From Bacteroidota bacterium (GTDB taxonomy: Bacteria; Bacteroidota; Bacteroidia; UKL13-3): 64,000 nucleotides of DNA. Shown piece after piece: positions 45,563 through 48,987 of this stretch; position 1 is the stretch's first letter; each line of letters opens with the position of its first letter. The stretch spans positions 310,001-374,000 of the forward strand of contig JAIXWD010000007.1 in assembly GCA_027482225.1 (NCBI GenBank), read 5' to 3'. The notes below the pieces were generated by a model that made no database searches, was not told the origin of the DNA, and saw only the letters and a program-made list of their open reading frames with translations. Made by a program: the position numbers and the translations under genes.

Positions 45563-46513
45563 ATGAAAGATTACATCAAATACGCCAAGGAAGTATTTAC
45601 AATTGAAGCCAAAGCAATAGCAGATTTAAGCAAACAATTGGATAATGATTTTAATAAAGCAGTTGACGCTGTGTTAAAAAGTAAAGGTCGTTTGGTTATT
45701 ACAGGTGTTGGCAAATCAGGGTTAGTAGGTACAAAAATATCGGCAACTTTAGCTAGTACTGGCACACCAAGTATGTTTATGCATCCTGTTGAAGCATTTC
45801 ATGGCGACTTAGGCATGCTGAAAAAAGATGATGTGGTGGTAGCCATTTCATACAGTGGCGAAACAGAGGAATTATTAAAGTTGATTCCTTACATTAAAGC
45901 TGCACAAATAAAAGTAATTGGCTTGAGTGGCAATCCGCAATCAACGCTTGCTAAAAACTCCAATTTTCATTTAAACGTAAAAGTATTCAAAGAGGCATGT
46001 CCACTAGAATTGGCGCCTACATCATCAACAACAGCAACATTAGCTATGGGCGATGCATTGGCAGTTGCTTTAATGAAAGCACGTAATTTTAAGCCTGAAG
46101 ATTTTGCTAAGTTTCATCCTGGTGGAAGCCTTGGCAAAAAATTGTTAACCACAGTTGAAAGTTGCATGTTTAAAGATAACTTACCCGTTATAAAACCCAA
46201 AGATAATATACAACAAGTAATACATACCATGAGCAGCGGCCGTTTGGGTTTAGCCATTGTGATTGATAAAAACAAAGTAAGTGGTGTTATAACTGATGGT
46301 GATTTACGTAGAGCCATGGATAAGCACACGGCAAAATTATTTACGTTAAGTGCTAAAGATATTATGACTAGCAAACCGCGTACCATCAATAAAAAAATGA
46401 TGATGGCTGAGGCCGAAGAATTAATGAATACGAATAAAATTACCTCTCTTTTAGTAGCTGATGGCAAAGGTAAATTGGAAGGTGTGGTGCAGATTTATAG
46501 CTTAAACAAGTAG
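45563..46513 (+). CDS. kdsD: KpsF/GutQ arabinose-5-phosphate isomerase
   Basis: 316 residues from ATG 45563 (MKDYIKYAKEVFTIEAKAI). Converts ribulose-5-phosphate to arabinose-5-phosphate, the first step of Kdo synthesis for lipopolysaccharide. SIS domain about residues 30-170 with VITGVGKSGLVGTKISATLASTGTPSMFMHPVEAFHGDLGM and SYSGETEELL; two CBS domains follow (MFKDNLPVIKPKDNIQQVIHTM, DIMTSKPRTINKKMMMAEAEELMNTNKITSLLV). kdsA lies 1.7 kb downstream on the same strand. Confidence 0.94.
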   Translation: MKDYIKYAKEVFTIEAKAIADLSKQLDNDFNKAVDAVLKSKGRLVITGVGKSGLVGTKISATLASTGTPSMFMHPVEAFHGDLGMLKKDDVVVAISYSGETEELLKLIPYIKAAQIKVIGLSGNPQSTLAKNSNFHLNVKVFKEACPLELAPTSSTTATLAMGDALAVALMKARNFKPEDFAKFHPGGSLGKKLLTTVESCMFKDNLPVIKPKDNIQQVIHTMSSGRLGLAIVIDKNKVSGVITDGDLRRAMDKHTAKLFTLSAKDIMTSKPRTINKKMMMAEAEELMNTNKITSLLVADGKGKLEGVVQIYSLNK

Positions 46514-46805
46514 AATTGACTGACGGCAAAGAAAATACTGACCTACAAAAGAAAGAATTTGAATACCTTTAAACCATTACAAATAATTAACAAATGAATT
46601 TATGCTAATTGATTTAACCACCTGATAAGACTAATAAATACGAGGGCCAGCATCAATTAAAATAAGCTAAACATAAGTTAGTTAAAAGCATAATTAAGAA
46701 AATACGATTAAATGTATGAATTGCTCGCAAAATCAGTTCATCTAAATTTTACAGCTTACAAATAACAATAAGCAGTATAACATACATTCCACTTAGGATA
46801 AAAAA

Positions 46806-47585
46806 ATGACGAAAGAAATAGAAAATATCAACCAGGTAATTGAGACTTACTTTAAAGCACATATAGATACCTCCATCGTTCCTGTAAAAGAATTAATGCA
46901 AGAGTTTATTGCAGCAGGTGTATTTAAAAAAGATGTGAAAAACGGCAAACCTATTCGTGATGTATTAAAACAACTTAACAAATCAAACGAGTTAGCTCAA
47001 ATACCCTATGCACATGCCATACAAAATGGCGATGATACTTACTGGTATTTTGTTCCTAAAGATGCTGAAAGACCAACTCAATTGTACAAACAAGAACCCG
47101 TTTCGAAAGAGCGATTGGAGTTGGAAAACAAACGTTTACTGAGCGATAAGTATTACGTTATGAATTTGTGTGATGAAGCCCTTAAACTAAAAGCCAAACG
47201 CCAAAAGAGATTTGATTTTTTAGTAGGCGATTTGCACAAGGACGGCAAAACAAGAACACAGTTACCGGTTGATGCATTTTACCATGATTTAAATTTAGTG
47301 ATTGAGTTTAAAGAAGCACCATTAGCTGAGCCTACCGAGTTTTTTAATAAATTAAATGTAAAAACGGTAAGTGGAATAAGCAGATCCAAACAGCGAGAAA
47401 AATACGACAGAGTTAAAGCAACTGAGTTACCTCAAAATGGTATTAAACTGATTGAAATCCCCTACTCTGTTTTTATATGTGATGAATTGAACAGAATAGT
47501 GAGGGATCATGAACAAGATTTAAAACGTGTTACTGATTTTTTAAAGCCTGAACAATACACCACTAAAATTGATAGTGTAGAATAA
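46806..47585 (+). CDS. Unrecognised protein with a PD-(D/E)XK nuclease-like core
   Basis: 259 residues, not a family I can name. Residues 1-100 look like a helical domain with VPVKELMQEFIAAGVFKKDVKNGKPIRDVLKQL. Then comes a core with KRFDFLVGDL, PVDAFYHDLNLVIEFKE (D156, E167, K169, the PD-(D/E)XK spacing), and SKQREKYDRVKATELPQNGIKLIEIPY, with Q196/R197 placed as in several nuclease families. No signal peptide. It stands between kdsD and a GNAT gene, neither related in function. May be a stand-alone restriction, repair or defence nuclease; the activity is inference. Confidence 0.55.
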   Translation: MTKEIENINQVIETYFKAHIDTSIVPVKELMQEFIAAGVFKKDVKNGKPIRDVLKQLNKSNELAQIPYAHAIQNGDDTYWYFVPKDAERPTQLYKQEPVSKERLELENKRLLSDKYYVMNLCDEALKLKAKRQKRFDFLVGDLHKDGKTRTQLPVDAFYHDLNLVIEFKEAPLAEPTEFFNKLNVKTVSGISRSKQREKYDRVKATELPQNGIKLIEIPYSVFICDELNRIVRDHEQDLKRVTDFLKPEQYTTKIDSVE

Positions 47586-47613: not shown

Positions 47614-48162
47614 ATGACACACCAATTTTTAGTAACCACAGCAAGGCTTACATTAAGAGAGGTAGAAATAGGTGATCAACAAAAGATATTTGAGGGATTT
47701 TCAAATCCTATTGTAACCAAATACATGGACATCACCTATCCTACTTTTGAAGCTACAGCAGAACAAATGTTGTGGTACGAAACTAAACGTAAAAACGGGA
47801 CAGGTAACTCTTGGGCGGTTATTAATGAGCAACAAGAGTTTATTGGCGTAATAAGTACCTATAACTTGCACACCTTGCACAGAAGATGCGAAATTGGTTA
47901 TTGGTTTTTTCCTGAATATTGGGGTAAAGGTTATGGCAAAGAAAGTATGGACATACTTCTAAAAACCTTAGCCAAACAACAAAATATTCACCGCTTTATA
48001 GCTGAGGTTGAACCTGAAAACAAAGCTAGTGTTGCCCTACTTAATAGTTTGGGTTTTAAACGCGAAGCTGTTTTTAAAGAACATGAATTTAGAAATAACC
48101 AATTTGCCGATTTAGAAATTTGGGCCAAAATTATACAACTAAGAGCTAACAATTATTTATAA
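47614..48162 (+). CDS. GNAT N-acetyltransferase, RimJ/RimL type
   Basis: 182 residues. Acetyl-CoA-binding motif RRCEIGYWFFPEYWGKGYGKESMDILL (pyrophosphate loop RxxGxG/A) and the C-terminal EPENKASVALLNSLGFKREAVFKEHE typical of ribosomal-protein and related acetyltransferases. Acceptor unknown. Lies 24 nt before kdsA and 28 nt after the nuclease-like gene, so the three may form one unit. Confidence 0.88.
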   Translation: MTHQFLVTTARLTLREVEIGDQQKIFEGFSNPIVTKYMDITYPTFEATAEQMLWYETKRKNGTGNSWAVINEQQEFIGVISTYNLHTLHRRCEIGYWFFPEYWGKGYGKESMDILLKTLAKQQNIHRFIAEVEPENKASVALLNSLGFKREAVFKEHEFRNNQFADLEIWAKIIQLRANNYL

Positions 48163-48186: not shown

Positions 48187-48987
48187 ATGAGTTTATACGA
48201 AAACATAAAAAACAATACCTTTTTAATTTCGGGACCTTGCATTATAGAGAACGAAACAATGGTAATGAACCTGGCTGAAAAAATCTCGAAGATTGCCGAA
48301 GAATTAAACCTTACTTATATATTTAAAGCCTCATTTGATAAAGCCAACCGCACTTCTGTTGATAGTTACCGCGGACATGGCATGAAAGAAGGTTTGCGTG
48401 TATTACAAAAAGTAAAAGATACTTTTGGATTACCCGTAACAACAGATATTCACGAAAGCTGGCAAGCTCCAGAGTTGGCTGAGGTAATTGATATTCTTCA
48501 GATACCTGCATTTCTATGCCGTCAAACAGATTTATTGGTGGAATGCGGTAAAACCAATCGCATTGTAAATATCAAGAAGGCACAATTTTTATCAGGTCAT
48601 GATATGATACATGCTGTTAAAAAAGTAGAAAATACAGGCAACAAACAAATTATGTTAACCGAGCGCGGAACCATGTTTGGCTATAACAATTTGGTGGTTG
48701 ATTTTAGAAACTTAGTAGATATGAAATCGTTTGGTTATCCGGTTTGTATGGATATAACACATAGTACCCAAAAACCTGGAGGTATGGGAGGTAAAAGTGG
48801 CGGTAACCGCGAATATGCCGTTTATTTAGCCAGTGCTGCAGCTGCAGTTGGGGTTGATGGTTTCTTTTTTGAAGTGCACGAAAACCCTGATGAAGCCTTG
48901 AGCGATGGTCCAAACATGATTGCTTTAAAAGACTTTAAACAGTTGTTGTTGGATAGTGTAGTGAAGTACAAAACAGGACTAAAATAA
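48187..48987 (+). CDS. kdsA: 3-deoxy-D-manno-octulosonate 8-phosphate synthase
   Basis: 266 residues. Condenses arabinose-5-phosphate with phosphoenolpyruvate, the second Kdo step. Motifs [57 protein letters not shown] and [11 protein letters not shown]. The N-terminal SGPCIIEN has Cys where E. coli KdsA has Asn, marking the metal-dependent class. Works with the KdsD encoded upstream. Strong terminator follows. Confidence 0.95.

Follow-up and report, generated by a model that had tools for sequence, protein, structure and literature searches.

What does a nuclease-like protein of 259 aa do between two Kdo genes of a Bacteroidota bacterium, and does it still cut DNA? The protein, P0001, is encoded in the window analysed here (the whole stretch of 64,000 nucleotides, to which plain coordinates refer), and its locus comprises the following features:

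45566–46513, + strand: kdsD, upstream neighbour (PDB match); the start codon is a choice, the ORF list giving 45497
46806–47585, + strand: P0001, winged-helix and Vsr-like protein of 259 aa (ORF, predicted model, selection)
46806–47069, + strand: predicted N-terminal winged-helix domain, residues 1–88 (AlphaFold2; winged-helix chains at Z about 5)
47121–47555, + strand: predicted Vsr-like PD-(D/E)XK domain, residues 106–250 (predicted model, conservation)
47271–47325, + strand: motif region from D156 to the H173 equivalent, with D156, E167, K169 and E170 present and P172-L173 in place of the family Q172-H173 (relatives' alignment)
47382–47408, + strand: invariant R193, Q196 and R197, and Y200-D201 (relatives' alignment)
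47614–48162, + strand: GNAT acetyltransferase gene, 28 bp downstream of the P0001 stop
48187–48987, + strand: kdsA, downstream neighbour (PDB match)

The P0001 ORF begins with ATG and runs for 259 codons, and the reverse frame matching it is stop-rich throughout. The flanking genes were identified by their PDB matches, kdsD with arabinose-5-phosphate isomerase (E 1e-53) and kdsA with the KDO-8-phosphate synthase family (best E 1.8e-83). The original prediction had correctly located the ORF and its residues D156, E167, K169 and Q196-R197 and had placed the gene among Kdo genes; it can be added that the GNAT gene sits between the ORF and kdsA, 24 bp from the latter, giving the order kdsD, P0001, GNAT, kdsA. 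In all five genomes of the genus carrying a P0001-type gene, kdsD lies upstream and GNAT and kdsA downstream, GNAT adjoining the P0001-type gene each time. In one genus genome (L010), three extra genes (L010:3949-5993) are located between kdsD and the nuclease-like gene, and the interval varies. The source genome has a single copy of P0001; two further DUF559 (Vsr-like) genes were found in it (G000:C14:84916-85221 and G000:C17:224715-225023). Hsd genes are absent within 5 kb of P0001, which is therefore not in an hsd operon. A search for a promoter pattern upstream of P0001 returned a one-mismatch site (46721–46750); since the window contains 69 sites against 64.2 expected, we make no promoter claim for it.

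P0001 is a real gene: it is present in five of the nine genomes of the genus, and pairwise dN/dS among the five copies is 0.11–0.21. The corresponding values are 0.09–0.18 for GNAT in the five genomes and, in four genus genomes, 0.007–0.041 for kdsA and 0.05–0.10 for kdsD. The absence of the gene from four genus genomes, together with a family copy of another genome (L052, from G034) that lies inside an hsd operon and is shortened by stops, might suggest a decaying remnant heading for loss; with such dN/dS values at dS of up to about 2, and frames intact in all five genus copies, this appears highly improbable.

Four profile libraries gave no match to P0001 above cut-off. The best Pfam candidate, nSTAND_NTPase4, was rejected at 17.2 bits against a cut-off of 27, and Pfam matched neither PF04480 (DUF559) at E ≤ 10 nor PF21598. 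NCBIfam yielded 0 families at E ≤ 10, and PADLOC yielded only CARF_PIN (E 0.0022, residues 55–136), which was also rejected. Similarity to phrog_559 ‘HNH endonuclease’ (E 0.001 over residues 145–227) and phrog_9084 ‘homing endonuclease’ (E 0.029) was found. An HNH identity was ruled out because of the Vsr-like shape of the P0001 model, and a homing role was set aside because no homing-type gene is located beside the window gene. A PDB sequence search with P0001 returned nothing meaningful, and among the best-ranked matches of an open-access literature search no paper was recognised as treating the P0001 family.

The AlphaFold2 model of P0001, constructed from eight aligned rows, has a mean pLDDT of 82 and a pTM of 0.53, at which the relative placing of the two domains is unsure. 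Residues 1–88 are predicted to form helices 2–18, 27–36 and 48–59 and strands 69–74 and 77–82. The original prediction had described a helical N-terminal domain of about 100 residues; the domain exists, and the model makes it a winged helix, with three helices and a two-stranded beta wing. It resembles the winged helices of ORC2, MukE and MCM8 at Z about 5, near background. Residues ~106–250 show the PD-(D/E)XK order of elements and, in the model, the alpha/beta fold of the Vsr-like branch of this superfamily; the pLDDT of loop 174–186 is below 50.

Foldseek, proposed earlier as a check, found nothing in the PDB at E ≤ 0.001 for the model, and its top matches were AbaSI (E 0.027) and PvuRts1I (E 0.041). 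In VIA-align, the top score belongs to a T. gondii mitoribosomal protein (Z 8.6), and the closest solved nucleases are Vsr (1cw0, Z 8.3, rmsd 5.0, 128 residues aligned; 1vsr, Z 7.5) and the catalytic domain of I-Bth0305I (3r3p, Z 7.6, rmsd 3.3, 97/97 aligned). The model of a His-bearing relative (L030) gives two mitoribosomal proteins at Z 9.7 and 9.2, 1vsr at 8.9 and I-Bth0305I at 8.8. Despite the fact that Z 7–8 can be background according to the tool's own note, the modelled fold, its coverage and the residues of P0001 agree on a Vsr-like fold. The nuclease-type fold proposed originally is thus borne out by the model, and the label ‘nuclease-like’ holds for the predicted protein, which does not imply an active nuclease.

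The catalytic domains of Vsr and of the EDxHD homing endonuclease I-Bth0305I have the same predicted fold as P0001. In both, a strand Asp is followed by a His 17–18 residues on and by a later Asp, an arrangement matched in most P0001 relatives with D201 as candidate for the later Asp. However, the structure-alignment identity with P0001 is 10–16%, and P0001 is without the His, carries an attached winged helix and has no adjacent m5C methylase. The modification-dependent nucleases PvuRts1I and AbaSI (PF21598) also contain a Vsr-like N-terminal domain, AbaSI being the best Foldseek match, but P0001 has neither an SRA domain nor a PF21598 match; among 16 relatives, PF21598 was weakly detected in three, all below cut-off (best E 0.0058).

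For residue counts, 30 relatives were aligned and are given in P0001 numbering. D156, E167, R193, Q196 and R197 are kept in 30/30, His-less members included. The other counts of 30 are 28 for E170, 24 for Q172, 21 for H173, 22 for D181, 29 for Y200, 27 for D201 and 12 for K169, so that the family motif reads D156-x10-E167-xx-E170-x-Q172-H173, then R-xx-Q-R-xx-Y-D. The metal-site Asp and Glu on neighbouring strands would be D156 and E167, judging from the model and the alignment. Of the nuclease core D156, E167 and K169 suggested by the original prediction, the first two are invariant; K169, the Lys of a classical PD-(D/E)XK site, is present in P0001 but in only 12 of the relatives, and is not a family-wide catalytic residue. 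The QR pair noted after the core proved invariant. The equivalent of the catalytic-type His69 of Vsr is Leu173 in P0001, and this His is absent from nine of the 30 relatives. In the five genus copies, P0001 among them, position 172 is Pro, position 173 is Leu, Ala or Glu, and position 181 is Asn; none of them has lost D156, E167, K169, E170 or D201.

A further parallel is provided by DUF559 (PF04480). For the DUF559 protein VsrA, residues E73, D102, D115, H119 and D124 are equated with E25, D51, H64, H69 and D97 of Vsr (PMC12907096). The step of 17 residues from D102 to H119 reported for this Caulobacter protein equals the D156–H173 step of the P0001 family. In hhalign, the D, E, H and YD of both families are in register, D201 of P0001 (the putative Vsr D97 equivalent) aligning with the DUF559 YD; the probability is only 51.6 (E 1.5e-4 for one comparison), and the match is a lead only. 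The DUF559 alignment comprised 29 rows from 30 loci; L097 was excluded because of a stop, and L075 is a stray row, having been cut from the wrong place on a short contig.

The P0001 family is sparse. Counting the source genome, searches found relatives in 7/58 related genomes, 5/395 genomes of the phylum, 15/395 of the class (five of the 15 matching by the N-terminal domain only) and 7/64 of the order (one N-terminal only). They were also found in 4/7 genomes in the family of G037, 1/10 in the family of G476, 2/244 in the class of G265 and 2/36 in the order of G610. Members lacking the window-type N-terminus occur in 11 or 12 actinobacterial plasmid records, depending on the search, and in three of four viral contigs; the relative in the remaining contig is full-length, and a repeat viral scan gave the same four. 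A phage search with L031 gave no match, and one with P0001 gave weak matches to three records (best E 0.02). The copy of a Paenarthrobacter plasmid (L018) is split across two frames, and that of a Streptomyces plasmid (L017:3952-5759) points away from a gene annotated as uracil-DNA glycosylase, ~0.4 kb off. In two viral contigs, dCMP/cytidine-deaminase-like proteins of 512 and 547 aa (L032:6273-7811 and L033:7361-9004) are encoded downstream of the Vsr-like gene; these presumably resemble anti-phage nucleotide deaminases.

In a midpoint-rooted tree of 29 rows, 12 members form a weakly supported clade (77/81), which we call resident: five of the genus, four of genus g17, and L037, L042 and L043. 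The midpoint root does not give the direction of descent, whether from operon form to resident or otherwise. Eight non-resident chromosomal members were found in Bacteroidota, and all were examined (G265, G196, G354, G107, G034, G490, G808 and G936). By Pfam, the gene is surrounded by hsdM, hsdS and hsdR in five loci (L024, L025, L026, L029 and L100) and by hsdS and hsdR in L101; in all six, it has hsdS on one side and hsdR on the other, with all three in the same orientation. At a contig edge, L109 has the gene upstream of a Fic gene and hsdR. L027 (G107) has no hsd genes, and a PDDEXK_4 gene comes next; a NUMOD1 protein is encoded upstream in this locus. In L025, L100 and L101, the nuclease gene directly adjoins GmrSD-family genes.

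Hsd homology was found within 5 kb in 7/8 non-resident loci against 0/12 resident loci, some loci of either kind stopping short of 5 kb. Within 1.5 kb, it was found in 4/8 family, 1/30 DUF559, 0/13 PF21598 and 0/12 resident loci; only this row compares the groups, because the DUF559 and PF21598 loci have 1.5 kb flanks. The Hsd queries were drawn from the tested loci, and self matches were removed. PADLOC assigned up to seven REase_I, eight MTase_I and six Specificity_I among 74 proteins of the eight non-resident loci, counting the best 25 of 321 families. The type I families number 0 among 94 proteins of 11 resident loci, where twelve other families are represented by one to three proteins each, the strongest candidate being PDC-S41 (one protein, E 4.6e-289). 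The input covered 94/109 resident and 74/80 non-resident listed proteins, family members included; most of the proteins omitted were partial or long. Type I genes are thus missing from the resident loci, though absence of every candidate defence gene is not claimed. These results agree with the original prediction that P0001 has no methylase or known defence partner beside it, and the check for defence linkage in relatives that it recommended was positive, with hsdR at 7/8 non-resident Bacteroidota loci.

The HsdR proteins of six loci are 22–58% identical and represent about four backbones; the nucleases are 44–62% identical over aligned parts. This divergence is compatible with a nuclease gene that entered the slot several times, or one whose surrounding hsd genes were exchanged. 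According to PMC12255303, which reports DarTG2 at this site, the place between hsdS and hsdR may be a hotspot for defence systems, and PrrC is a known embedded effector of a type IC locus (PMC12707154). Relatives of P0001 occupy the same operon place as these embedded effectors of type I R-M operons, although PrrC and DarTG2 belong to other protein families, and the window gene has left such an operon or never was in one. The operon surroundings and the relatives on plasmids and viral contigs, together with the patchy presence in five of nine genus genomes and the extra genes in the kdsD interval of L010, could mean that P0001 continues to serve in defence, as a chromosomally encoded nuclease that attacks phage or plasmid DNA without partners. 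We consider this unlikely: the five genomes share locus and neighbours, type I genes are missing near the 12 resident loci, and so is the catalytic-type His of P0001.

The N-terminal domain behaves as a module. It occurs alone in L048, and in L045:1495-2103 and L046:1387-2103 the window-type winged helix is followed by a Lys/Ala/Pro-rich tail, as in a small chromatin protein. L053:1-3258 contains the end of hsdS, an OGG-like glycosylase gene, a gene for a window-type winged helix fused to a UDG-family domain, and the start of hsdR. DNA glycosylases occupy here the same operon slot as the nuclease relatives. L044:256-3227 comprises the HsdR C-terminal end, a YgjP-like gene and a window-type winged helix fused to NOV_C, and a different N-terminal type is fused to GIY-YIG in L047. 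DNA glycosylases are known anti-phage proteins (PMC11078745). Such operons might be layered, type I R-M acting against plain DNA and accessory enzymes against modified DNA.

The active site distinguishes the resident members. His is absent from 9/12 of them against 0/18 others, and K169 is present in 10/12 against 2/18; the three residents with His all carry K169 too. Fisher values of 0.0001, 0.004, 0.00002 and 0.0001 were obtained in the comparisons of this work with related loci counted as independent, and are indicative only. On the tree, three changes of His loss, all within the resident clade, are forced by well-supported branches. L042 and L043 lost both His and K169, have E170 and D201 changed and lack most other active-site residues; the window lineage retains K169, E170 and D201. 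In genus g17, the two His-bearing copies have a dN/dS of 0.187 and the two His-less copies one of 0.116. The His-less genes are under purifying selection, with no relaxation after His loss at the present resolution.

These observations can be explained in more than one way. P0001 might be an active nuclease with rewired chemistry, in which the gained Lys169 completes a classical D-x10-E-x-K site and makes the Vsr-type His dispensable. The excess of K169 among residents, including those that keep His, the active-site residues intact in all five genus copies and the unrelaxed selection would be expected of such an enzyme; however, L042 and L043 lost His without K169, Lys is common in these A+T-rich genomes, and the loop after the motif (174–186) is the part modelled at pLDDT below 50. 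We regard rewiring as a real but minority possibility. More doubtful still is a fuller version, in which the resident lineage is caught midway in an active-site handover: a Vsr-type His nuclease of restriction operons would have gained the (D/E)xK Lys, lost its His at least twice in Lys-bearing branches, and become a host nuclease that is inherited stably and works by a new chemistry.

The best explanation of the sequence, predicted fold, conservation, His losses, selection and context, to which we would give an even chance, is that P0001 branched off a family of accessory nucleases belonging to type I R-M operons and became resident and domesticated, with its cutting lost or much reduced. Most likely, the window gene descends from the operon family or shares an ancestor with it, and is now resident with a changed active site. 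In the operon relatives, with type I R-M and sometimes GmrSD at their side, the winged helix would direct the Vsr-type nuclease to DNA that is foreign or modified. In the window lineage, where the equivalent of Vsr His69 is gone and D156, E167 and the R..QR motif are kept, the protein most likely still binds DNA, while its cutting would be lost or much reduced, and it may serve the host, e.g., in mismatch or damage binding, or in regulation. The five invariant residues are more than would be expected of a dead enzyme, and the missing His argues against a normal Vsr-type one.

A precedent for such a protein is FASTKD4, whose Vsr fold is described as preserved, the position of His69 being taken by Asn, and which was judged to be without nuclease activity (PMC11879112). 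In it and in other Vsr-fold proteins without nuclease activity, the fold is kept, the His69 place is changed and a function is retained; these are mitochondrial RNA-binding proteins, however, and the likeness to P0001 is at the level of the fold. Several points may weigh against the domesticated-offshoot explanation: the Z values of the model may be background and are accompanied by no significant Foldseek match, the alignment-based resident clade is weakly supported under a midpoint root, and PDC-S41 and eleven other PADLOC families were matched in resident loci.

The analysis outlines a family lying below the cut-off in four profile libraries, in which a winged helix is joined to a Vsr-like nuclease and which recurs in the hsdS–hsdR slot of diverse type I operons. 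The winged helix shared with a glycosylase and a NOV_C protein near hsdR genes hints at a common targeting module for accessory anti-phage effectors. The members of the family form a natural series, from His-bearing mobile forms through residents with His and Lys to residents without His, which allows nuclease loss or rewiring in domestication to be tested.
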